Below the pieces are notes generated by a model. The model worked only from the letters and a program-made list of their open reading frames with translations. It was not told the origin of the DNA and ran no database searches. From Natrinema sp. SYSU A 869 (lineage in GTDB: Archaea > Halobacteriota > Halobacteria > Halobacteriales > Natrialbaceae), in NCBI RefSeq assembly GCF_019879105.1, contig NZ_CP082249.1, positions 3,658,001-3,722,000 of the forward strand: a stretch of 64,000 nucleotides of DNA, written 5' to 3'. Each line of letters opens with the position of its first letter. Position 1 is the stretch's first letter. Shown here piece after piece: positions 16,437-42,309 of this stretch. A program made the translations under genes and the position numbers.

Positions 16437-18058
16437 AGATAGCCTAAGTCGGACAGTCGGTCTTCGACAGTCCCATCGTCGGTCGCTACGATCTGGTTCG
16501 GATCGTAGGCCGGGTACGTTCGCTCCGCGTTCCCGCCGATAATCGAGAGCGGGTCACCGTCCATCGCGGCGTCGACCGGGATGTCGAAGAGCGAACAGAT
16601 CGTCGGTGCGACATCGAAGATCGTCGCTCCCTCGAGGGAGCGGACTCGTCGAACGCCGGCCCGGCAGCTGCGACGACGCCGGTTCGCTTGTGATTCCACG
16701 GCTCCATCGGTTCGCCGAACTGCGCCTTCCCGAGGCCAGCGTCGATCGCGGTGTCGAACTCTCTCGGAACCGTCACGACGTCGGGTGCCTCATCGACGTA
16801 TGGGCCGTCGAAATAGGTCTCTCTCGGTTCGACCGCGTCGAACATCGGTTCGCCGTCCGGCGTTCGGACGTCCGACAGCGTCTCGATGAGTTCCTCGCGG
16901 ACGCTCTCGTACTCCGCGGACGGCACCTGTCCGTTCGGTTCGCGGCCCGCGAGGTTGATCCGGACACCGAGTTCGCTCTTCGAGCGGACGTATGCTTTCG
17001 ACGCCGGGAAGTCGACCTGTTCGCTCGCCGCTCGGATCGCGTCGTTCGGTACCCGTTTGCCGATCGGTTCTTTCAGGCCGACGTGATCGAGTGCACTCGC
17101 GACCCGCTGGGTCGTGAGCCCGACGTTCGCGGCGAGGTTCATCGCTCGCTCGAGCGGGCTCGGCGCGTGATCGCCGGCCTCGGTCCCTCGAGGAGATCGT
17201 TCTCCCAGGATTTCGACCAGTTGGGCATTCCGCCACCGCCGCTTCGAGCACGCACGTAGTTGCGCTCGCGAAGGAACTCATTGACCCGGAATTCGTCGCC
17301 GGTCACCGTCCCCATGCCGTGGTCGCTGACGACCAGGACGTTCTCCGGCTCGGTTCGCTCGATGGTCGCTTCGAGCTGTCGGTCGACCTCGCGGTAGACC
17401 GCCTCGATCGCCCGTTTGTCCCCAGGACGCTCGTGAAACACCGAGTCGGTCTGCTGGAACTGCAGGAAGCCGAAGTCGGGAGCCATTCGGCGACAGAGGT
17501 ACCGGAACGCCTGCCCTCGGAGTTCGATCGTCCGTTCGTACCCCTCGATCGACCGGTCCGGTGCCGGCCCGCTCTGTGGATACACCCAGTACTCGCCACC
17601 GCAGGCGAGTTTCACGTCCTCGAGGATTCCCTCGGGATGGCAGCCCGGATCCTCGGGGGCAGTCAGTCCCGGAATCAACGCGCCATCGAACTCCCGGGCG
17701 GGATGGGTTACGGGCACGTTGACGACGACGCTCGAGAGCCCGTGCTCGCTCAGTAGCTCCCAGACCGGTCGCGCCCTGACGTGCGTCGCGTTGACGACGT
17801 CCCAGTCGTAGCCGTCGAACGAGAGGAAGTCGTAGACGCCGTGTTTTCCCGGATTCTTGCCAGTGTACAGCGATGGCCATGCGCTCGCCGTCCACGGCGG
17901 AATCTGGGACTCGAGTGGCCCCGCAGCCCCGCGATCGAACAGCCCCTGAGTGTGGGAAGTTCGCCCGACTCGAACAACGGCTCGAGCACCGGCCGACAGC
18001 CGGCGTCCAGCCCAACAACGAGCAGACGAAGGTCTTTGTCGTCGGTCGAACCTGCCAT
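16433..18058 (-). pseudogene. alkaline-phosphatase-superfamily protein with three single-base frameshifts
   Basis: Read with three corrections this is a protein of about 542 aa, close to the intact 530-aa paralog at 40717-42309. It opens with MAGSTDDKDLRLLVVGLDAG, carries the nucleophile region PPWTASAWPSLYTGKNPGKHG, the metal motif VVSDHGMG and IFDVAPTICSLFDIP, and ends VEDRLSDLGYL. The frame changes at about 17943-17946 (GGGG run), about 17175-17179 and about 16636-16638 (CCC run); each fits the loss of one base. The gene is therefore either a young pseudogene or intact with homopolymer sequencing errors. It overlaps the downstream acyltransferase by ATGA. The family includes phosphodiesterases, pyrophosphatases and sulfatases; the substrate is probably a glycan or nucleotide sugar. 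Confidence 0.85.
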
Positions 18059-18082
18059 GGAGGCGTTGTCCGTTCGCCCGTG

Positions 18083-18091
18083 CTTTGTTAT
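18083..18091 (-). promoter_or_regulatory. ATAACAAAG promoter motif, site 1
   Basis: The minus strand reads ATAACAAAG 25 bases before the ATG at 18058. This is the TATA-box position for a leaderless haloarchaeal transcript. The same 9-mer recurs upstream of many glycan genes in the window. Confidence 0.6.
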
Positions 18092-18301
18092 GCAACTACT
18101 GGCGTGCTGTAAGATCGTGCTGGGCGCTCTACGGTCAGAATAGTAGTTCAGGCAGCGTGACTGTCGTTCGCTGTCGATATCTGTAATACCCGATTGACCC
18201 GCCGATCGCGGGCTGTATCGCCCCTATCACTAAGGCCGCGCCCGTTTCCGTGTTACGTCGATGATCGTCTCTACTACTGACTTCCCACACCGCCGCTCTC
18301 T

Positions 18302-26729: not shown

Positions 26730-27326
26730 ATGTCCTCAATCGATACGTCGCTGCCCGACGAGATCGCCTCAGTCGCCGACGCAGACGAGGATGAGCGTCT
26801 CTCGAAGGACGTCATTTTTGAGCTCTTAAAGAATCGCCGTCGCCGAGAAGTCCTCGCGTACTTGCTCGAAGCCGACGAAACAGTCACTCTCGGTGAACTC
26901 GCCGAACAGATCGCCGCCTGGGAGAACGATACCGAGGTCAACGCGCTCAGTTCCGATCAACGGAAACGCGTCTATGTCGCCCTCTACCAGACCCACCTGC
27001 CGAAGATGGACGATGCCGGTATCGTCGAGTACGACCAGGACCGAGGCTTGATCTCGCTGGCCGATAACGCCGACCTGCTGATGATGTATCTCGACACGGA
27101 CAGCCACCGCCAGGACCGGTGGGACCGATGGTATGCCGGCCTCAGCGTGGTCGGCGCTGTCCTCCTCGGTGCGGCGGCCCTCGGCACGCCGCTGCTATCG
27201 GCCGTCCCGATGCTCGGCCTCGCTGGCGTCGTCGTCGTCGCCTTTTTCTGTCTCTCGATCGCTCATGTCGTCCAGAACCGTTCGCAGGAACGCAACGTCG
27301 ACGGCAAACTGTCCCGGATCGAGTGA
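26730..27326 (+). CDS. winged-helix regulator with two membrane helices (DUF7344-like), copy 1
   Basis: 198 aa. Residues about 25-120 form a winged helix: DVIFELLKNRRRREVLAYLL, VTLGELAEQIAAWEND, RKRVYVALYQTHLPKMDDAG, IVEYDQDRGLISL. This matches the haloarchaeal DUF7344 type. Two hydrophobic segments follow (about 138-158 and 160-180), so the DNA-binding part would sit on the cytoplasmic side of the membrane. Two relatives in the window (55601-56137 and 59569-60072) share the order HTH, QTHLP motif, two TM. It stands alone upstream of the glycan block; targets unknown. Confidence 0.88.
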   Translation: MSSIDTSLPDEIASVADADEDERLSKDVIFELLKNRRRREVLAYLLEADETVTLGELAEQIAAWENDTEVNALSSDQRKRVYVALYQTHLPKMDDAGIVEYDQDRGLISLADNADLLMMYLDTDSHRQDRWDRWYAGLSVVGAVLLGAAALGTPLLSAVPMLGLAGVVVVAFFCLSIAHVVQNRSQERNVDGKLSRIE

Positions 27327-27914: not shown

Positions 27915-29069
27915 ATGGTCGTTCGAACCGCAGTCGTCGGCGCAGGAACGGTCTCGCGGGCCCACCTCGCGGGAGCGCAGAACAACCCTGAGATGGAACT
28001 GGTCGCAGTCTGTGACCTCGACGAGGAACTGGCCAGGGAGCGGGCCAGGGAGTTCGGGACGATGGCAGTGACGGACTTTACGGAACTCCTCGACGAACTC
28101 GATTGTCTGCACGTGTGCACGCCGGTCCAGACGCACTTCGACATCGCCCGGCAGGCGATTGAAGCCGGCGTCGCCGTCATCATCGAGAAACCCGCTACCG
28201 TCACCGCCGAGGAGGTCGAACAACTCCAGACGCTCTCTCGAGAGCATGAGACGCCCGTAACAGTCATTCACAACCACCTGTTCTATCCGGCGGTCCGCAA
28301 GGCCCGGGAGCTGATCGACGCCGGCGAACTCGGCCACGTCAAGTCCGTGGACACCCTCTATGCGGGACTGACGCCGCCCGATCAAGTCAACCGGGGATCG
28401 TGGGTGTTCGAACTGCCTGGCGGCGAGTTTGAGGAAGGACTTCCGCATCCGATCTACTCGGTTCTCGGTATCGGCGGCTGGCCGGAACGCGACGACGACG
28501 TCTCCGCACAGACCGTTCTCTCGGAGCACTACGAGGAGGACTTCGAGTACGACCAGGCACAGGCCCAATACGTCTCCGAAGACGGCGCGCTCTGTAACGT
28601 GACGATGCTCTCGGGGACGCTCCCCCAGCGCCTCCACGTGATCACCGGCTCCGAAAAGTCGCTCGTGGTCGACGAGATCAACCAATCGCTCTACGAGGTC
28701 GACGAGGATTACACGTCGTCGGTCATCGCCCGCTCGAAGAAGAGCCTTGACGTCTCGCTTGCCCAGGTCACCAGCACCCTCGAGAACGCGAAGTCCGTCG
28801 CCACCTCCCGGTTCGACGACAGCTGGGAGGCGGAGACGGAGACGAACTCACACTGTGCGATCTTCGACGGGTTCGTCGACGCAATCGAGGGCGACGCCGA
28901 CGTGCCGGTGCCCCTCGAGCAGTCGAAGTGGACGATCCGCATCATGGAGACCATCCGCGACGCCGCCCAGCTCCACCACGAGGGGGACGCGGCGGCGGTC
29001 GACGCGGCGGACGGAACCGAAACAGTGGAGACGGGGACGGACGAGGAGTCCGTCCCGGTTGACTTCTAA
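27915..29069 (+). CDS. Gfo/Idh/MocA-family NAD(P)-dependent sugar oxidoreductase, copy 1
   Basis: 384 aa. The Rossmann motif is AVVGAGTVSRAHLAGA at the N-terminus, and the nucleotide-binding signature EKP lies in GVAVIIEKPATVTAEEV. The C-terminal alpha/beta domain is followed by an acidic tail (ETVETGTDEESVPVDF). These enzymes oxidise or reduce a hydroxyl/keto group on free or nucleotide-linked sugars. It lies 36 bases upstream of the flippase gene and is probably co-transcribed with it, which places it in surface-glycan synthesis. Two more family members are encoded at 43624 and 52301; substrate unknown. Confidence 0.9.
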   Translation: MVVRTAVVGAGTVSRAHLAGAQNNPEMELVAVCDLDEELARERAREFGTMAVTDFTELLDELDCLHVCTPVQTHFDIARQAIEAGVAVIIEKPATVTAEEVEQLQTLSREHETPVTVIHNHLFYPAVRKARELIDAGELGHVKSVDTLYAGLTPPDQVNRGSWVFELPGGEFEEGLPHPIYSVLGIGGWPERDDDVSAQTVLSEHYEEDFEYDQAQAQYVSEDGALCNVTMLSGTLPQRLHVITGSEKSLVVDEINQSLYEVDEDYTSSVIARSKKSLDVSLAQVTSTLENAKSVATSRFDDSWEAETETNSHCAIFDGFVDAIEGDADVPVPLEQSKWTIRIMETIRDAAQLHHEGDAAAVDAADGTETVETGTDEESVPVDF

Positions 29070-29105: not shown

Positions 29106-30569
29106 ATGTCACTCTCACAGCGTATCGTCCGCGGAGTCAAAGCCACGTTCGGCGCTGAACTGCTTCGACTCGGCGCACAGGGGGCCATCACCCTGTTACT
29201 CACGCGGGTGTTCCTCTCGCCCGACGAGTACGGCCTCATCTTCCTCGCCATCGCGGTTTTCTCGATCGCGACCCTCTTTGGAACCCTCGGCATTCCGAAA
29301 TCGATGGCGAAGTTCGTCACGGAGTATCGGGAAACGGACGACTCCCAGATCCGTTACATCGTCCGCTCGTCGATCGCGTTCAACGTCGTCACCGTCGGAC
29401 TCGTCTGCGTCCTGTTCTTCTTCTTTCGCGACGCGATCGCGGCCGCGTACGGCGAGCCGCGGTTAGAGCCGCTGCTGGCGCTCGGGATCGTCTTCATCGT
29501 CGTCAAGGTCGCTCACGGCTACCTGCTGATCGCGTTCCAGGGTTTTGGCAAGGTCACTCTGACCGCGGCGACCAGTACGGTCTCGAGCGTCGGCCGACTC
29601 GGCTTCATCGTGCTCTTTCTGGCCGCCGGATTCGGCGCGTACGGTGCGCTGGCCGGCTTCGTCGCCGGCTATCTGGTGTCCGTCGTCGTCGGCGGATACT
29701 TCTTCTATCGGCTCCTCTCGTCGTACCCCGCGTCCGAGTCCGCCGAACCCGGCCTCTCGAAACGGATCGGCAGGTACAGTCTGCCGCTGACGGCCTCGCA
29801 GGGCGCAAACGTACTGTACAAGCGCGTCGACACACTAATGGTCGGGTTCTTCCTGACGCCGGTCGCGGTCGGCTTCTACGAACTCGCCAAACAGATCTCG
29901 ACGTTCGTGATCGCACCCGCCGACTCACTCGGCTTTACCGTCGCGCCGACGTTCGGCGAGCACAAATCGTCCGAGCAACTCGAGCGCGCCGCTCGAGTGT
30001 ACGAACAGTCGCTCGAGTACGTCCTCCTATTGTACCTGCCGGCGGTCGCTGGGATCGTTCTCCTGGCGGAACCCGGAGTTCGGTTCGTCTTCGGTAACGA
30101 GTACACCGGTGCCGCACCCGTCCTGCAGGTGTTCAGCGCCTTCGTCCTGTTCCAGGCGATCGACAAGATCACCAACGATAGCCTCGATTACCTGGGTCGG
30201 GCGACCGAACGCGCGCTCGGGAAGGGTCTCACCGGCGCGCTGAACTTCGGGCTGAACCTCGTGTTGATCCCGGCAATCGGTGTCGTCGGCGCGGCGACAT
30301 CGACGGCGCTCTGTTATGGCCTCATGGTGTGCTACAACGTCTATCTCATCGATCAGGAACTCGAATTGCACTGGCGGCGACTCGCTACATCAATCGTGGC
30401 GGCCGGCGGCGTGACGGTCGCGATGATCGCCGCCGTCGTCGTGTTGCAGCCGTTCGTCACCGGACTCATCACCCTGCTCGCCGTCATCGCCGCCGGCGTC
30501 GCAGTCTGGGCAGTGCTCTCCGTCGCGAGCGGTCTGATCGATATCTACGAGCTCACGGCCCATATCTGA
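29106..30569 (+). CDS. polysaccharide flippase (Wzx/MATE-like)
   Basis: 487 aa with about 12-14 membrane helices. It opens MSLSQRIVRGVKATFGAELL and contains LLLTRVFLSPDEYGLIFLAI, typical of Wzx-type flippases of the polysaccharide biosynthesis/MATE superfamily, plus GFGKVTLTAATSTVSSVGRL. It probably moves a lipid-linked glycan across the membrane for polymer or S-layer/archaellin glycosylation. The start follows the oxidoreductase stop by 36 bases. A T-rich stretch (GATTTTCTG) about 30 bases after the stop may terminate transcription. Confidence 0.92.
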   Translation: MSLSQRIVRGVKATFGAELLRLGAQGAITLLLTRVFLSPDEYGLIFLAIAVFSIATLFGTLGIPKSMAKFVTEYRETDDSQIRYIVRSSIAFNVVTVGLVCVLFFFFRDAIAAAYGEPRLEPLLALGIVFIVVKVAHGYLLIAFQGFGKVTLTAATSTVSSVGRLGFIVLFLAAGFGAYGALAGFVAGYLVSVVVGGYFFYRLLSSYPASESAEPGLSKRIGRYSLPLTASQGANVLYKRVDTLMVGFFLTPVAVGFYELAKQISTFVIAPADSLGFTVAPTFGEHKSSEQLERAARVYEQSLEYVLLLYLPAVAGIVLLAEPGVRFVFGNEYTGAAPVLQVFSAFVLFQAIDKITNDSLDYLGRATERALGKGLTGALNFGLNLVLIPAIGVVGAATSTALCYGLMVCYNVYLIDQELELHWRRLATSIVAAGGVTVAMIAAVVVLQPFVTGLITLLAVIAAGVAVWAVLSVASGLIDIYELTAHI

Positions 30570-31000
30570 GCTGTCTCGCTGGCTCTCGGCGACGGTGATT
30601 CGATTTTCTGCCGCTTTCATGCCCGGTTCGATCGGAGGCGCTCAAGTCGTCCGGCGAGTCGTCACTTGCTGTCCCGTAGCAGCGCCCACTGTCGTATCTC
30701 GAAAGCGATGGATCTGTCTTTGCCCTCAAAGACTGATAGTTATCTGGAGCGAATATACAGACAATTTTGATAGTTCGACTATTGATAGTCGCCTTAAACC
30801 GAGATATGTTTGTTGCCAGTAATTCTTGACTGATCGACAGCCGAGAGTGTCAGTGTATACGGAGGAAACGTCGCTAACTAGCTATTACCACGCCGCAGTA
30901 CCGCGGTTCCAATATAAGACATCCATACTCCAATTCAATATATTAAACAACAAATATCGATGAACGCCTGAATTCTGTTTATTTATACAGATATAAGCGG
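30570..31000. other. AT-rich intergenic region
   Basis: The bases from about 30740 to 31000 are much richer in A+T than the rest of the window and contain CAATATATTAAACAACAAATA and GTTTATTTATACAG. No gene is supported. The low GC fits a strong promoter/upstream region of the surface-protein gene at 31037, or a hint of transfer. Confidence 0.4.
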
Positions 31001-31010
31001 AAAGTTTATG
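31001..31010 (+). promoter_or_regulatory. AAAGTTTATG promoter element
   Basis: This 10-mer occupies positions -36 to -27 from the ATG at 31037. The identical 10-mer is at the identical distance before the paralogous beta-helix gene (34765-34774, minus strand). It is probably the shared TATA/BRE region of leaderless transcripts. Confidence 0.6.
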
Positions 31011-31036
31011 GTGGCATATTATCCTTAACCGAATGC

Positions 31037-33106
31037 ATGGCACGCGACAATTCGGTATTGGATGACGACGATTCTGCGGGTAATATCCCCAAAAACGGGG
31101 ATACGACCGGTAATAACAAATTACTCGACCGTCGCTCGTACCTGAAGCTGACGGGTGCGGCGTCCGTGGTCGGTGGCGGTTTCGCGACCGGCACCGCGGC
31201 CGCCGCAGAGGAGTACGAGGTCATCGAGGCCTCCAACGAGTGGTACAACATCGACGACGGCGAGGTCTTCGAGAACAAGATCATCGACTTTTCAAACGGT
31301 AACTGGTTCGGGCTTTACGCTCGAGAGTCGACGAACTGGACGATCCGGAACGTCGGCTTCGTCGGAACCCACAGCCACGACAAGCACGCGATCGCGGTGG
31401 CCGACGTCGACGGCAACACGTCGACGATCGAAAACGTCTACATGGGTGACGGCTGCGTGCGCCCGAGCAGCTACAGCTCCCACGGTCAGTGTGGGATCTG
31501 GGTCGCTCCGGAGCACAGCGGTCACATCGATATTCGACACTGCAACGTTCAGGACTGGCCCAACAACGGGATTTACGGGTCCGCACCCGGATACAACGGC
31601 AACGGCGGCACGGTCCACATCGATCGCTGCTACGCGGCGAACAACTACGTCTCGAGCTACCGGCTGAGCTCCGACGGCTCGAAATGTACGGACTCCGTCG
31701 CGTACAACGACGGCAACGGCCGCTACAACGGCCGGTGTTTCTGGGGCTGGAACCCCGGACAGATGGAGGTCTCGGGCTGTGACTTCAGTTCCGGCTCGTA
31801 CAACGACGCGATCCACCTCGGTCGGAACGGCGAGACGACGCGGATCAGCGTCAAGGATACACAGTTCGACGGCATCAGCCAGCGCGGTGACATCCGGCTC
31901 AATCGCGGGAGCGGGCTCGGCTCGAACCCCGATCTCTCGATGCCCGAGGGCGTTCCGACCTCCGCAGAGGAGGCCGCGAGCGGCGGTTCGTCCAGTAGCC
32001 CGCCCACCGACGAACCCACGAAAGACGATCCCAACGACTCATCACTGGCGAATACGATCGTTTTCGATGGGAACGGCACGTCGGACGCCACGAGCTACGA
32101 GTTCATCGTCAGCGAGGCGGTCGAAGCGAGCACTGACGAAAACGCGACAATCGACCAGGCGGCCTCGGTCGACGGCACCCGCGCCAGCGGTACCGTCGCC
32201 GACTACCTCGATGCGTTCCGCTTCGACGGCGAAATCGAGCGCCTGTCGGTCGACGGCGACGCGACCGTCCGGGTCAACGGCGTCGAGATCGACCCCGCAA
32301 ACATCGACGACATTCTGGACAATATCGTCGTTATCAATGGGAGCGACGAGGACGCGACCCGCTACGAGTTCACCGTCAGCGGTGAGGCCGAACGGAGCAG
32401 CTACGACGGCGCTTCGATCGACGACGAGGATGCCATTGAGGACGGCACCATCTACGGCGGCGTTGCCGACTGGAAGGACGCGTTCCTGTTCAGCGGTGAG
32501 ATCGAAGAGCTGACCGTCGACGGGCCGGGAACGGTTTCAGTCAACGGTGAGCAGATCGATCCCTCGGACTTCGGCGACGACCTCCCGCACGTCCTCGAGG
32601 TAGAGGGGTCGGGGGACCCGGTCGGATTCGAGATCACGGTCGACGGGACGATCGAACTCGCTTCCGACGAGGAGCCCGAAGACGAAGCGACGACGATCTC
32701 CGGATCGACGGTCCAGAGCTCCGTCACCGACGACAGCATCCGCTTTCGCTTCTCCGGAACGCTGACCGACGTGACGCTGACCAATGGGACGCCAACCATC
32801 ACGGTCGACGGCGAAGAGATCGACCTCGAGGAGTATGGCGATCCCGAACTGCTGCCCCACGCGATCGTCTTCGACGGTACCGAAGCGTCCAAGCCGAGCA
32901 CGTATTCGTTCCGCATCGACGGAAAGGTCATTCAGGCCGAGTACCGCGACGCGTCGGTCGATGAGAACGACATCGTCGAGGAGACGACGGTCCGCGGTGG
33001 CGTCGGCAACTGGCTCGACGCCTACTGGTTCGACGGCGATATCGAGGACTTCACGATCCTCGGTGACGCGACGGTCGACGTTCAATACAACGCGCGCGAA
33101 CAATAG
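31037..33106 (+). CDS. Tat-exported right-handed beta-helix protein with four C-terminal repeats
   Basis: 689 aa. A twin-arginine signal (DRRSYLKLTGAASVVGGG, residues 31-48) precedes a beta-helix domain of about 250 residues (TNWTIRNVGFVG, TSTIENVYMGDG, GHIDIRHCNVQDW). A Ser/Pro/Asp linker (about 309-336) leads to four tandem modules of about 80-90 residues (337-426, 427-515, 516-606, 607-685). Each has a hydrophobic opening like IVFDG, a core YEF/YSF strand, a motif like VADYLDAFRFDGEIE and VNGVEIDP. The first half is homologous to the protein encoded at 33788-34738, which stops at the linker. The family includes polysaccharide lyases and epimerases, so processing of exported polysaccharide is a guess. 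No catalytic site identified. Confidence 0.88.
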   Translation: MARDNSVLDDDDSAGNIPKNGDTTGNNKLLDRRSYLKLTGAASVVGGGFATGTAAAAEEYEVIEASNEWYNIDDGEVFENKIIDFSNGNWFGLYARESTNWTIRNVGFVGTHSHDKHAIAVADVDGNTSTIENVYMGDGCVRPSSYSSHGQCGIWVAPEHSGHIDIRHCNVQDWPNNGIYGSAPGYNGNGGTVHIDRCYAANNYVSSYRLSSDGSKCTDSVAYNDGNGRYNGRCFWGWNPGQMEVSGCDFSSGSYNDAIHLGRNGETTRISVKDTQFDGISQRGDIRLNRGSGLGSNPDLSMPEGVPTSAEEAASGGSSSSPPTDEPTKDDPNDSSLANTIVFDGNGTSDATSYEFIVSEAVEASTDENATIDQAASVDGTRASGTVADYLDAFRFDGEIERLSVDGDATVRVNGVEIDPANIDDILDNIVVINGSDEDATRYEFTVSGEAERSSYDGASIDDEDAIEDGTIYGGVADWKDAFLFSGEIEELTVDGPGTVSVNGEQIDPSDFGDDLPHVLEVEGSGDPVGFEITVDGTIELASDEEPEDEATTISGSTVQSSVTDDSIRFRFSGTLTDVTLTNGTPTITVDGEEIDLEEYGDPELLPHAIVFDGTEASKPSTYSFRIDGKVIQAEYRDASVDENDIVEETTVRGGVGNWLDAYWFDGDIEDFTILGDATVDVQYNAREQ
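32045..33091 (+). repeat. four tandem protein modules of about 85 aa
   Basis: DNA encoding residues 337-685 of the beta-helix protein. The modules align on IVFDGNG / VVINGSD / LEVEGSG / IVFDGTE, on FRFDGEIERLSVDGDATVRV and its equivalents, and on the VNGVEIDP / VNGEQIDP / VDGEEIDL block. They are diverged at the DNA level, so this is an old duplication. Confidence 0.8.
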
Positions 33107-33787
33107 ACAACGTCGTAACTGACGCGGCATCGATACGTTGCGATGCGGTATCAGTGATCGGCCCGACTCGCGCTCGTTTTACTCGTTCTCATTCGATTTA
33201 CAGCACTCGAGAGCCGTTCAATCACGGTTCCCCGGCGTCTCGGAAGCGTCTCGAGCGCTCGAGAGATCCGCAGACGGAACCGCTGTTCACGCGAACTACG
33301 CACTCGCCGTCGAGATCCGGGTAATTCAGCGAGTAATACGGTATTACCGCTTCGCTGCTACTCTGCGATACTGTTTGTCATCAGCTCGTGTGGTTCACTT
33401 CCCGGGTCTGGCGGCCATCGATTGCAGCCGGTCGATCAAGCTGGGATCGAACGACGACTGGCGTTCTCGAGCATGGCCACGGATTGCCGGCCGCTCGCTG
33501 GGCCAATAGCGTCGAACGGAACCGTCGCACGTTCGCAGTCGATACCGGTGGCCGGTCGAGGAGAGAAACGATACAGTTGTCGGTGCTCCTGTTTCGGAAC
33601 GAGTTGCGAAAAACGAGACGTGAAAAACGGTCGCGTATAGTGGCTGCCGCGTATCGAGGCCATACGCGAAAATTGCGTCAACGGGACCGCAACGATGTGT
33701 GCGTGGTGGGGTGGGGAGGGCTGCGTCAGCGGGGGAGGGATGCGTTCGCGTCAACGGGTCGGGGTTCCTCGAGAGCGGGTCGCGTCG
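33107..33787. other. intergenic between convergent beta-helix genes, with a palindrome
   Basis: About 680 bases, no supported gene. At 33333-33347 the sequence GTAATACGGTATTAC is a perfect inverted repeat of 7-base arms around one base. A possible T-rich terminator (CGTTTTACTC) lies about 70 bases after the stop of the 31037 gene. Confidence 0.45.
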
Positions 33788-34738
33788 TCAGTTCTGCGAA
33801 CCGGATGCTGCTTCTTCGGGACTCGTCGGGACGCCCTGCGGGATGAACGCCTTGGGGTCGGTGCCGACGCTGTCGCCGAGCTGGACGGTCGAACCGGCGT
33901 GTTTCGCGACGCCGGCTTGTTCGTCGTAATCGGAGTCCGTGACGTTGATCTCAGTCGGACTTCCGTTCGCGCCGGCGTCGATGGCGGTGTTCTGCCCGTT
34001 CATCTCGATCTGGCAGCCCTCGACCTCGATCGTCCCTGGGGCCCAGCCCCAGATACCGCGGCCGACGTAGCCGTGACTGCTGTCGACGTAGACGCTCGAG
34101 TTCGTGACCTTGCTCCCTTCGGTGGCCAGTCGGAAGTGCGAGACGTAACAGTTCGCGGCGAAGGTGCTGTCGATGTGGATCGTCCCGCCGCCCTTGTTCC
34201 CGGGGGCAGAGCCGTAGATCGCGTTGTCCGCGAAGTTCTGGATGTTGACGTTCTCGAAGTCGATGTGACCGTTGTGGTCCGGAGCGACCCAGAAGGCCGT
34301 CTGCCCGTGGCCGTTCGGATTGCCGTTACCGGCGCTCGAGCCGTCACCGAGGTAGACGTTCTCGATGGTGCTAGTGCCGTTGCCCGTATCGGAGATACCG
34401 AACGTAGCGGACCCGGTGCCGGAGGTGTTCTCGCCCTTGAAGCCGATGTTTCGGATCGTCCAGTCACTGCTGTGGGCGGTGATGATGATGTCCTGGCCGG
34501 TCGTCATGTCGATGAGCTTGTTCTCCCACGTCTCACCGGCATCGATGGTGATCGTCTGTCCTTCTGCTTCAATGACCTCGTAGTCGTCCTGGGCGGCTGC
34601 CGTGCCAGCTCCACCGATCGCAGTCGCCGCAGTCGCCACGGCGGCGAGCGAGCGAACGTAGTTACGGCGGGTTAAGTCGCTATTACGGCCTGCAGTCGGA
34701 GTAGATTCCGTCTCGGACGTACGGGGATTCTGCGCCAT
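33788..34738 (-). CDS. Tat-exported right-handed beta-helix protein, short paralog
   Basis: 316 aa from MAQNPRTSETEST; a Met five codons upstream is less likely because the promoter element fits this one. The twin arginine is in LTRRNYVRSLAAVATAATA, with predicted cleavage after GTAAAQ. The beta-helix shares with the 31037 protein DWTIRNIGFKG, TSTIENVYLGDG, FWVAPDHNGHIDFENVNIQ, AIYGSAPG and the end QGVPTSPEEAASG. It ends exactly where the other protein continues into four repeats. It is convergent with that gene across 680 bases. Probably a secreted polysaccharide-binding or -processing protein; no catalytic residues assigned. Confidence 0.87.
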   Translation of the reverse strand: MAQNPRTSETESTPTAGRNSDLTRRNYVRSLAAVATAATAIGGAGTAAAQDDYEVIEAEGQTITIDAGETWENKLIDMTTGQDIIITAHSSDWTIRNIGFKGENTSGTGSATFGISDTGNGTSTIENVYLGDGSSAGNGNPNGHGQTAFWVAPDHNGHIDFENVNIQNFADNAIYGSAPGNKGGGTIHIDSTFAANCYVSHFRLATEGSKVTNSSVYVDSSHGYVGRGIWGWAPGTIEVEGCQIEMNGQNTAIDAGANGSPTEINVTDSDYDEQAGVAKHAGSTVQLGDSVGTDPKAFIPQGVPTSPEEAASGSQN

Positions 34739-35659: not shown

Positions 35660-37453
35660 CTACGGCTCGCTACTGATAGCGTACATCTTGAACTCGTCGT
35701 TCGAGACGACCTTGTTCGCGCCCGGTTCGGTGTCGAGCCCCTCGAGTGCGGCGTTGCGGTAGTTGAGTTCTTGATAGATGTCGATCTCTTTCGTCCTGTC
35801 CCACTCCGTGACGACGAAGTAGTACTCGTCGGTCGGATAGGCCCCGCTGTAGTTGCCTGACGAGAAGACGCTCGCGTTGACGGTTCCGGTGGACGCCGAC
35901 GCGCCACCGATGGTATCGCCGCCGCCGGAGATACCGTTGATCGCGTGATCGTACCGGTAGGGATCATAACCCATGCCCGCGTAGGGAACGTCCTCGGCCC
36001 CGTGATCTAAGCCGTTCTCGTAGCCGCTCATCATTTCGGGGGTCACGTGCTGGCCCGGGTTGTAGATCAGCGGTGACGCGAACACCGTTATCAGACCGAG
36101 CACCAGACAGCAGCCGAGTATCAGGGCCGTGACCGCGTTCGCTCCCGGTCTCGTGAGCAGTCTCGAGAGGCCGCCCGTGAACTGTGCCAGCGCGATTCCG
36201 GCAAGGATCGTGATGAGAACGTAGATGAAGCCGATCTGTCGGAACGCCATCGTCGGGGTCCCGACGAAGTAGACCGCGAACAGGCCACCGAGCGGGATGA
36301 ATCCGAATCCGACGTAGTTGACGAAGGATCTGCTCTCGGCGTCGAGACTCGTCCGCCCGAGCCAGACGGCCAAGATGAGCAAGCCGACGAGGAGCCCGAT
36401 GATCGCCGCGTCGAGAAACATCTTCACGAAGAGTTCGGCGAGGCTCCCGCCGATATCGGTCAGCGACGATCCTCGCTGATCGACCTCGGTCCCGGCACCG
36501 ATGTCCTGGGCGAGCAGCCCGGAGATGAGTCCGGACGCAGCGCTTCTGAACCGTTCGTTGCCGAGCGCCCAGAGTCCGAACATCCCACCGAGGACGAGCG
36601 TGTGCGCGTACGTCGTCGGATGCTCGAGCATCGGGTGCTCGTCGAATCGTCGGCGGGCGAGGAACTGGACGCCGCTGATCGCGCCGACGAAGACGATGAT
36701 ATTGAACATCTGCTGAGGATGGACCAACAGGAGTGCGAGACTGGTGAGATAGATGAGCGCGCTGAACGGCGATAGCCCGAGCGGGAGCCGTTCGACCGTC
36801 GACCGCCGTCGGAGATAGGCGACGATAGCGAAGACCACGGGTGGAACGAGAAAGAGTGCGTTCGAGTTGGTGTGGACGCCCATGAACGTCGCGATGTTGT
36901 TGACCGGCAATATCATCCAAGAGACGATGGCGGCGAGCCCGACCGCCAGTCCGCTGCCGGCCATATCGCGGACGGCGAGCGGGACGAAGATAACGAACGG
37001 AACGAAGAGAACGACCATACCGATCAGGAGCCCGCGTTCGATCGGGATGCCACCGACGAAGTGAAACACTGTTGCGATGGCGTGTAATCCGGGATAGAAC
37101 AGTTCGTGGGGCGCGGTTCCCCCGGAGACGATATCTCGCGTCCAGCCCAGGTGTGTCATCGCGTCGCCCATCCCGGCGAAGCGATAGTTCCGGATCACGG
37201 GGAGGCTCACGATGGCCGTCACCGTCGTCCCGCCGAGTGCAATCCCGTACCCCTGTTGGCGACCGCGACAGGACAGGGTCGTCCCGACTGCGACGGCGAG
37301 CGCGAGTGCGAACACGGCCCAGGTGATCGTCGGCGATCCCACGTAGACTGAGGACTCGTAGGCGGCCGCCGGGTTCGCTCTCGCGACCAGAATTCCGATC
37401 GCGACTGCGAGAAATCCGGCCGCGACCGTCACGTTGAGCGTCGACCGTCTCAT
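35660..37453 (-). CDS. large polytopic membrane protein of the glycan cluster (GT-C/polymerase-like)
   Basis: 597 aa with about 13-14 membrane helices, then a soluble C-terminal domain (about 460-597, SGYENGLDHGAEDVPYAGMG, GNYSGAYPTDEYYFVVTEWD). The first large loop has GMGDAMTHLGWTRDIVSGG and ELFYPGLHAIATVFHFVGG, an acidic-loop arrangement like GT-C glycosyltransferases or oligosaccharide polymerases. I cannot name the family. The location in a polysaccharide locus supports a role in polymerisation, transfer or export. Its ATG overlaps the stop of a 14-codon leader ORF (37450-37494). The mini IS200/IS605 element touches its stop codon, so the C-terminus may have been altered. Confidence 0.8.
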   Translation of the reverse strand: MRRSTLNVTVAAGFLAVAIGILVARANPAAAYESSVYVGSPTITWAVFALALAVAVGTTLSCRGRQQGYGIALGGTTVTAIVSLPVIRNYRFAGMGDAMTHLGWTRDIVSGGTAPHELFYPGLHAIATVFHFVGGIPIERGLLIGMVVLFVPFVIFVPLAVRDMAGSGLAVGLAAIVSWMILPVNNIATFMGVHTNSNALFLVPPVVFAIVAYLRRRSTVERLPLGLSPFSALIYLTSLALLLVHPQQMFNIIVFVGAISGVQFLARRRFDEHPMLEHPTTYAHTLVLGGMFGLWALGNERFRSAASGLISGLLAQDIGAGTEVDQRGSSLTDIGGSLAELFVKMFLDAAIIGLLVGLLILAVWLGRTSLDAESRSFVNYVGFGFIPLGGLFAVYFVGTPTMAFRQIGFIYVLITILAGIALAQFTGGLSRLLTRPGANAVTALILGCCLVLGLITVFASPLIYNPGQHVTPEMMSGYENGLDHGAEDVPYAGMGYDPYRYDHAINGISGGGDTIGGASASTGTVNASVFSSGNYSGAYPTDEYYFVVTEWDRTKEIDIYQELNYRNAALEGLDTEPGANKVVSNDEFKMYAISSEP

Positions 37454-40716: not shown

Positions 40717-42309
40717 TCACTCCATGTAGCCGAGTCCCTTCAGCCGATCCTCCACGTCGTCGAAGTCCTCGTCGACCTCCTCACCGTTCTCGATCCGGCC
40801 CACCGCCGTCCGCTCGACTTTGGTCGCCGCCGGCGTCCCCTCCTCATCGAAGGCGTCGAAGAGGACCCGCCCGTCGGCGTTTTCCGGCACGGGCTCGCCG
40901 ATTCCGTGCAGCAGCGTCGGCGCGATGTCGACTACTCGAGCCCCGCGCAGGGTCGCGCCGGGTGCGATCGACGGGCCGCGACAGAGAACGATCCCCTCGC
41001 TGCGGTGGCTCGCGTCGTAGGTCCCCGTATCGCCGCGTATCTCGTCTGACATCCCGCTTCGGGACTCGTAGACGCCGCGGCCGCCGACCACGAGATCAGG
41101 CGAGTCCTCATCCGTCGGAAACAGGTCGTCCCCGTCGTGGACGACCAAGAGGGAATCGCCGTCGTCGTCGGTCGCTGACTCGAACGTGGCTCTAATATCG
41201 GCCTTTATTTCGGACACTTCGCTCGGCGAGACGACGCCGCTGTCGAAGCGCTCGGTGTCGTTGATATAGCAGTTGCCGGTGTCGTGGACGAACGCGACGG
41301 TCCGGTCGTAGTCGACGTCGTAGAGGGCGTGATCGCCGGGGATCTGCTCGGCAACGGAGTCGACCAGCCGCCGAGGCAGCGACTGGACGAGGGTTTCTTC
41401 GGTGATACCAACCCGATTGAGTGCCCCGGTAATGGCTTCGCGAGAGATGCCGAGGCTCGCGAGCGCCCCGCGGGTTCCCTCGTCCTCGCGCCGGAAGAGG
41501 TACCCTTCCTGCTCCAGAATACGGTTGACATAGACAAGTTCCTCGATCGGGCCGAAGCCGTGATCGGAGACGACATAGAGGTCTGCATCGTGATCATCCG
41601 TGTACTCCATGACCTCGCCGAGTATGTTGTCGAGTTTCTTGTAATGGGCGAGCAGTCGGTCCATATCCCAGATAAGGTGCTGGAACCGGTCGGGCGCGGT
41701 GTAGACGAAGAAGAACAGCTGCCAGTCGTCGCCGGCGCGATCCATCTGGATCTCCATGAGTTCGCGACGTTTTGTGAGCATGTCGTCAACAGCGACCTCG
41801 AAGTCGTCCAGCCGATCGGCGTACTCGGGATAGTCGAGACTGATATTATAGTCCGGAATCCGGGAGTCAATCTCGTCTTGCAGATCCGATGGATGCGTGA
41901 ACTCCCGATCCGTCGAGGGCGTCATCATCCCCGTGACCATGGTGCCGTCGATCTCGCGGGCTGGATATGTCATCGGGACGTTCCCGACGTGGGCCGGCCC
42001 GAGCTGATCCCAGAGGGCCGGCTGTGCGAGATTCCGACTCGTGTACATTTCGTGGCTGTATTCCGAAGAGAGATTCTGAAAGCCGTAGATGCCGTGTTTG
42101 TCCGGCCATACCCCCGTCGCGATCGATGGCCAGGCAAGAGGCGTCGTCGGCGGGCGAGTGCTGTCGAGCGTTCCGGACGCACCCTCCTCGCGCATCCGGG
42201 CGAAGTTCGGGAGTTCACCCTCGTCGCTCCATTGCTCGATGAGTCTCCACGGCACGCCGTCGAGTCCAAGCACGAACGCTCGCTCGGAGGGGGTCGTAGA
42301 TCCGCTCAT
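40717..42309 (-). CDS. alkaline-phosphatase-superfamily protein (phosphodiesterase/pyrophosphatase-like)
   Basis: 530 aa, intact. Metal-binding motifs: AFVLGLDGVPW at the N-terminus, the nucleophile loop RPPTTPLAWPSIATGVWPDKH, VVSDHGFGPIEE, and a late His in YDASHRSEGIVLCRGP. It lacks a signal peptide, so it acts in the cytoplasm or leaves by another route. The family covers nucleotide pyrophosphatases, phosphodiesterases and phosphonoacetate hydrolases. It shares length and the C-terminal VEDRL...LGY with the frameshifted paralog at 16433-18058, which also sits in a glycan cluster under the same promoter motif. Possible roles are recycling of nucleotide sugars or trimming of phosphoryl groups; the substrate is not known. 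Confidence 0.87.
   Translation of the reverse strand: MSGSTTPSERAFVLGLDGVPWRLIEQWSDEGELPNFARMREEGASGTLDSTRPPTTPLAWPSIATGVWPDKHGIYGFQNLSSEYSHEMYTSRNLAQPALWDQLGPAHVGNVPMTYPAREIDGTMVTGMMTPSTDREFTHPSDLQDEIDSRIPDYNISLDYPEYADRLDDFEVAVDDMLTKRRELMEIQMDRAGDDWQLFFFVYTAPDRFQHLIWDMDRLLAHYKKLDNILGEVMEYTDDHDADLYVVSDHGFGPIEELVYVNRILEQEGYLFRREDEGTRGALASLGISREAITGALNRVGITEETLVQSLPRRLVDSVAEQIPGDHALYDVDYDRTVAFVHDTGNCYINDTERFDSGVVSPSEVSEIKADIRATFESATDDDGDSLLVVHDGDDLFPTDEDSPDLVVGGRGVYESRSGMSDEIRGDTGTYDASHRSEGIVLCRGPSIAPGATLRGARVVDIAPTLLHGIGEPVPENADGRVLFDAFDEEGTPAATKVERTAVGRIENGEEVDEDFDDVEDRLKGLGYME

Follow-up and report, generated by a model that had tools for sequence, protein, structure and literature searches.

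A tailed and a tailless beta-helix protein with Tat-type leaders in Natrinema sp. SYSU A 869 and the uncurated module that forms the tail

The DNA analysed here (the window) is a stretch of 64,000 nucleotides from Natrinema sp. SYSU A 869. It carries two related genes, which lie on opposite strands in convergent orientation and encode a long protein, consisting of a head and a tail of four modules, and a short protein that corresponds to the head only (Table 1). For the short gene, position 34738, which was given as its end in a preliminary description of this DNA, is the codon of the second methionine (MAQNPRT...) and is a plausible start because it looks like the long protein's own start, MARD. 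In both proteins the N-terminus has a twin-arginine motif with a hydrophobic stretch behind it (DRRSYLKLTG in the long, LTRRNYVRSL in the short one). The leader of the long protein has no lipobox cysteine, and the M-A-R start and the twin arginine were invariant across 14 aligned long proteins. In BLASTP comparison 136 of 301 residues were identical (45%, E 3e-73) and the alignment stopped exactly at the EEAASG common to both proteins, beyond which only the long protein continues, with its four modules. The surroundings contain a flippase, sugar dehydrogenases, glycosyltransferases and a UDP-sugar dehydrogenase, i.e. the pair is situated in a glycan-synthesis region.

Table 1. Features of the two genes and their neighbours (coordinates of the window; loci counted among 69 related loci)
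Feature	Residues	Position	Strand	Basis or remark
TFB, conserved neighbour		24918		42/69 loci
DUF7344 protein, conserved neighbour		26730-27326	+	46/69 loci
Gfo/Idh/MocA sugar dehydrogenase, adjoins flippase		27915-29069	+	9/69 loci at E<=1e-15
Polysaccharide flippase (Wzx/MurJ-like), directly upstream of long gene		29106-30569	+	PF01943, E 7e-30
Long gene (tailed)	689 aa	31037-33106	+	ORF
Leader of long protein	1-57	31037-31207	+	twin-arginine signal DRRSYLKLTG...TAAAA
Head of long protein	58-316	31208-31984	+	model, VIA, conservation; includes C-cap, residues 303-316 (31943-31984)
Flexible acidic/Ser/Pro linker	317-338	31985-32050	+	low pLDDT, fast evolution
Module M1	339-427	32051-32317	+	extra module of the four-module clade
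Module M2	428-516	32318-32584	+	modelled alone, 9 beta strands
Module M3	517-606	32585-32854	+	divergent penultimate type, resembles stand-alone one-module proteins
Module M4	607-689	32855-33103	+	conserved C-terminal end Y-N-x-R
Short gene (tailless partner, head only)	321 aa	33788-34753	-	ORF; likelier start 34738; head 33800-34585
Large membrane protein, most conserved neighbour of the pair		35660-37453	-	51/69 loci; no Pfam match

The head of the long protein was modelled with a pLDDT mostly above 90 as a right-handed parallel beta-helix, and structural comparison (VIA) returned many beta-helix enzymes at Z values of about 21. The best matches were PL6 alginate lyases (Z ~21); alginate epimerases, pectate lyases and tailspikes followed within about 2 Z units of the PL6 score, and the beta-helix adhesin PfbA and phage tailspikes reached Z values of about 20. 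At the sequence level and E<=0.01, generic Beta_helix matches (PF13229) were obtained with 15 of the 55 long proteins and with neither protein of the window. None of the lyase models of Pfam matched any of the heads, no lyase family of Pfam or NCBIfam was obtained with either window protein at E<=1, and searching the PDB sequences gave no lyase match for them, so PL6 membership is not indicated by sequence matches. PL6 lyases have a catalytic Lys/Arg and a calcium site. Among 130 heads, R104, N105, E132, N133, Y135, D138, N177, Y180, S182, R209, R233 and W236 were each conserved in 97-100%, two of them (R209 and R233) being invariant arginines. The near-invariance of these twelve polar or aromatic positions, seen in short and long forms alike, suggests one shared chemistry. 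A bacterial relative of the head, in a Nannocystineae MAG (L132), was 49% identical over residues 59-316; its 805-aa ORF gave no Pfam match, and its presence there could be due either to transfer or to mis-binning.

The preliminary description, made from the sequence alone, had proposed that the two proteins share the type of signal, the beta-helix and a linker, and that the short protein ends where the long one continues. The signal type, the fold and the endpoint agree with our results. The linker claim held in part: the sequence in question, PEGVPTSAEEAASG, is indeed common to both proteins, but it caps the beta-helix at its C-terminal end and is not a free linker: P303 (99%), P307 (99%) and A313 (96%) were conserved among the 130 heads with and without tail, and a short helix is modelled in this region (model residues 256-261, corresponding to residues 310-315 of the protein). 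What really links head and tail is the Ser/Pro/Asp stretch behind the cap (about residues 318-334), modelled with low confidence (pLDDT below 50 over model residues 264-280). In comparisons with five other Natrinema loci (L078-L082), this was the fastest-evolving part of the long gene (dN/dS 0.25-0.81), while the values for head and modules (0.09-0.23) indicate purifying selection.

The tail consists of four related modules of 83-90 amino acids. In all six pairwise comparisons the local score was higher than the largest score obtained with 500 shuffles per pair, lying 5.7 (M3-M4, the weakest pair) to 27 standard deviations above the shuffles. Most long proteins have three modules, and those of the window's clade have four, the module types following each other in a fixed order. 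Glycines are the most conserved columns of the module, and the terminal Y-N-x-R was conserved in at least 90% of 55 aligned long proteins. For the window proteins no Pfam or NCBIfam match exceeded the cut-off, a match of DUF945 on the whole protein being below cut-off or at chance level. Likewise, 98 diverse modules compared with Pfam, NCBIfam and PHROGs gave isolated chance-level or sub-cut-off matches only: DUF7713, MRP-S35, two phrogs and two HisB models were each seen in one of the 98 modules and were rejected as the family of the module. A profile built from the 98 modules found nothing in the PDB sequences. AlphaFold2, supplied with 98 sequences, predicted a compact all-beta domain of nine strands (pLDDT 97, pTM 0.87). 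Foldseek detected no PDB entry similar to it at E<=0.001 (best E 0.71), and the best VIA Z value was 4.8, which is weak as many unrelated structures were tied at this score or lower; the rows included archaeal chitin-binding domains, TRAP, Clp1, DUF4425, lectins, cohesins, adhesin domains and pilins. The module may have a common small all-beta arrangement.

In the class, 204 of 292 genomes and 65 of 77 genera contained the module (E<=0.001), with up to 37 matches per genome. In a phylum sample of 392 genomes all 56 matching genomes belonged to the window's own order, the number sampled outside the order not being itemised. Proteins contain between one and seven modules. Using a lenient pattern and omitting 36 ORFs cut by the end of a locus, we saw a Tat-like motif ahead of the modules in 115 of the 124 complete ORFs that were long or multi-module, versus 6 of 32 small single-module ORFs, and in 106 of the 124 the last module ended at most 12 amino acids from the C-terminus. 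Proteins with a single module were present in 37 of 145 genomes sampled, and in most of these proteins no Tat signal could be recognised. Seventeen large module proteins, taken from 20 regions and chosen by ORF size rather than at random, were scanned for other families. Eleven had one above the cut-off (seven of the beta-helix/pectate-lyase type, two with both a subtilase and a GH26 domain, one polysaccharide deacetylase, one malectin/PKD) and six had none. Searches for the protein pair and the module in open-access full texts found no title. The claims that the tail is built of four related modules of about 85 residues, that these cannot be assigned to a known family and that they represent a new exported domain are borne out by these data: the profile search revealed no well-described domain, the predicted structure is compact, and the module recurs, joined to other domains, in other Tat-exported haloarchaeal proteins.

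A binding function of the module, also proposed in the preliminary description, is plausible. Two other roles of the tail were considered. It could be a mechanical spacer, whose stable beta domains hold the head off the cell or separate catalytic domains without binding any ligand. The conserved glycines, the full-length model, which has no low-confidence gaps between modules, the variable module number and two proteins (L179, L180) in which modules lie between the subtilase and the GH26 domain are all consistent with a spacer, but the prevailing C-terminal position is unsuited to one, since such a spacer would bear a head on one side only, and the fixed order of module types and the conserved YNxR also argue against it. 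We consider a pure spacer unlikely, though it is the strongest of the alternatives. Still less probable are protein-protein docking units, in the manner of adhesins or of cohesin and dockerin, that would bind each other, the S-layer or the single-module proteins. Stand-alone one-module proteins do occur in the same genomes as the exported tails, and cohesins, adhesin domains and pilins are among the weak structural rows. However, these rows are ties, and 26 of the 32 stand-alone proteins have no Tat motif and may never meet the exported tails.

Long proteins were compared with that of the window region by region (58 rows; the truncated L094 was left out). In L078-L082 the heads were 90-93% and the modules 79-92% identical to those of the window. 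In N. ejinorense (L083) the modules were 78-83% identical and the head only 41%. DNA identity between L082 and L083 was about 46-63% up to gene position ~860 and 74-93% beyond ~930, a step from about 55% to 80-90% at about position 870-1000. In paired head and tail trees (31 rows, the window and 30 of the 69 loci), placing the L083 head among the window-type heads was rejected by the AU test (p 0.00036), and the L083 tail fell inside the window clade (SH-aLRT 99). Two loci on one contig of Natrinema thermotolerans (L092, L093) had tails of 85% and heads of 44% identity; for this second candidate (L092 versus L093/L102) the AU test was not significant (p 0.285). Judged from these sequences, what changes between relatives appears to be the head and the number of modules, not the tail: heads seem to pass between strains by recombination onto a tail that remains constant.

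The exchanged heads co-vary with the flippase. Given the conserved membrane protein, the partial correlation of flippase identity with head identity was 0.77 (reached in 0 of 2000 permutations), and with tail identity it was 0.28 (51 of 2000). The matrix comprised the window and 15 of the 18 flippase-matched loci (L088, L133 and L138, which have no reference membrane protein, were left out), and the permutation leaves shared ancestry in the correlation. In two exceptions (L087, L090) the head resembles that of the window (64-65%) and the flippase is distant (43-44%). Physical linkage alone can be enough to produce such a correlation; we infer a functional connection from it.

The exchange could also be driven by viruses, if the heads were adhesins or virus-facing surface proteins and not enzymes. 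The near-lyase scores of PfbA and the phage tailspikes would fit this, and the same has been proposed for haloarchaeal cell-wall islands: a published study describes their diversification via homologous recombination and mentions predating viruses in Haloquadratum (PMC4535781). On the other hand, the polar residues stay near-invariant across the exchanged heads, as expected if their chemistry is conserved. The tailless partner, too, shows strong conservation, and viral contigs and phage records contained no relative, which also led us to reject a viral origin (the best BFVD match, a plant-virus protein at E 0.052, was taken as chance). We regard virus-facing heads as improbable, to about the same degree as docking modules.

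The pairing is ancient. A short form (open frame of 317-356 aa) with a long-frame partner nearby was present in 29 of 29 genomes of the genus, the long frame being shortened to 442 aa in one of them (G295). Of the 69 related loci, 65 had the long form, 54 the short form and 52 both within 1.5 kb, 45 of these close pairs being on one strand. The window's nearest named relatives are Natrinema. In the tree built from 130 heads, one starred clade comprised 44 short forms, the window's among them, from many genera. The tree is unrooted, and which of the tailed and tailless states came first cannot be read from it. Because the short forms cluster in this way, the short head is an orthologous lineage of its own, neither a recent truncation nor the ancestor of its neighbour, and the tailed and tailless lineages are both old and stable. 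The earlier idea that one copy of a duplicated pair recently gained its tail, which the 45% identity of the two heads, the presence of a tail on one gene only and the absence of a module remnant after the short-gene stop in three-frame translation might suggest, was therefore rejected for this pair as highly improbable in view of the short-form clade and of the usual proximity of a tailed partner.

We favour, with a probability of about one half, a reading in which the two proteins are secreted by Tat export and act as glycan-tailoring enzymes, the short one being free and the long one retained by its tail, with a head that is exchanged together with the flippase. It is preferred because of the head fold, the conserved residues shared by both forms, the purifying selection and the glycan-synthesis surroundings. 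Both proteins would be carbohydrate-active right-handed beta-helices, their target being the polysaccharide that the cell itself exports. The short protein would be a head that diffuses freely, and in the long one a related, exchangeable head would sit on a stiff rod of three or four abutting all-beta modules, a constant accessory tail that would hold it within the matrix of extracellular glycan or S-layer. A strain whose glycan changes might acquire a new flippase and head region by recombination ending at the head/tail junction, with the result that the head fits the new polymer and the tail stays. Against enzymes it can be said that any lyase-family catalytic residue set in the head is putative and that no lyase model of Pfam matches. 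Glycan binding by the tail is suggested by its context, the module giving no significant structural match, and a purely extracellular role of the module leaves the single-module proteins, mostly without Tat signal, unexplained. A more specific version is offered tentatively and seems to us the less likely one: a plug-in system in which a constant free beta-helix enzyme and a constant docking tail would be combined with glycan-specific heads, which recombination up to the junction would swap along with the flippase that matches them. If this were true, haloarchaea would have in the tail module a new docking or glycan-binding domain shared across the class.

In any case, the module is common among the exported proteins of haloarchaea, is unnamed and has no curated family in the three libraries searched, and naming it would provide annotation for many 'hypothetical' exported proteins. 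The constant tail with its exchanged head and the link to the flippase offer a direct test of how archaea match surface-glycan enzymes to a changing surface glycan.

Among known systems, PL6 alginate lyases and chondroitinase B resemble the head in fold (VIA Z 20-21 over about 240 residues), but they are only 9-14% identical to it and no lyase family of Pfam matches; moreover, the head scores nearly as high with epimerases, pectate lyases, tailspikes and PfbA, and its active site is putative. The alginate C5-epimerases AlgE and AlgG have a similar beta-helix (Z about 19-20). In AlgE proteins the C-terminal accessory R-modules are calcium-binding beta-rolls, whereas the modules described here are predicted to be small all-beta domains of nine strands. 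The archaeal chitin-binding domains 2cwr and 5dhd are likewise small all-beta domains attached to carbohydrate-active enzymes (VIA Z 4.4-4.7), but these rows are tied with the unrelated folds of TRAP, Clp1 and DUF4425, and none of the 98 modules had a Pfam match beyond chance. With regard to carbohydrate-binding modules, the fusions are mixed: GH26, deacetylase and beta-helix partners occur, but so does subtilase, and 6 of the 17 proteins scanned show no other family above cut-off. There is no Pfam sequence match to a CBM family, and the structural rows are tied at Z 4.8 or lower, a level that rules out no family. Relatives on public plasmids are usually annotated as 'right-handed parallel beta-helix repeat-containing protein' or 'hypothetical protein', and among those listed none names the tail module. 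Carbohydrate-active beta-helix proteins that carry all-beta accessory modules at the C-terminus are well known. The less usual features are a class-wide module without a curated family and the exchange of heads, in step with the flippase, on a tail that stays constant.

The module also occurs alone, as the whole of small proteins of about 95 aa (loci L002-L006, see the table), in most of which no Tat motif is seen. Matches to such one-module proteins were found in 37 of 145 sampled genomes, every one of them within the window's own family, and the two copies on contig C2 of genome G000 are 98% identical. A head without any module was detected in a Myxococcota MAG (Nannocystineae, L132:4417-6831), where it forms the C-terminal part of an ORF of 805 aa and is 49% identical to the head of the window's long protein; this may reflect either transfer or a mis-binned contig. 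The long gene in Natrinema hispanicum DSM 18328 (L120:5944-7807) consists of two overlapping frames, split inside the first module by either a frameshift or a sequencing error, and the long frame of genome G295 is shortened to 442 aa.

The in-frame residues preceding the start codon of the long gene (KVY.G...LP.C) appear similar across many relatives, which suggests a conserved promoter in the A+T-rich upstream stretch. At the opposite end, the YNAR-x-Q motif stands immediately after the last strand and terminates the long proteins; it is possibly a recognition end. The membrane protein encoded beside the pair gave no Pfam match, and we would guess that it is a candidate polymerase or glycosyltransferase partner of the pair.

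Positions of the features discussed (in the window, unless marked otherwise)
Feature	Position	Strand	Remark
Type I phosphodiesterase/nucleotide pyrophosphatase protein	17139-18095	-	Same glycan region as the pair
Second such protein	40717-42309	-	Same glycan region as the pair
Membrane protein, 597 aa	35660-37453	-	Most conserved neighbour of the pair (51/69 loci)
A+T-rich stretch	30740-31036		5' of the long gene
C-terminal YNAR-x-Q	33080-33103	+	Conserved at C-termini of aligned long proteins
Stand-alone one-module proteins, L002-L006	G000:C2:810456-810740, G000:C2:496137-496421, G000:C1:352177-352455, G000:C3:2938634, G000:C3:3479533		Outside the window
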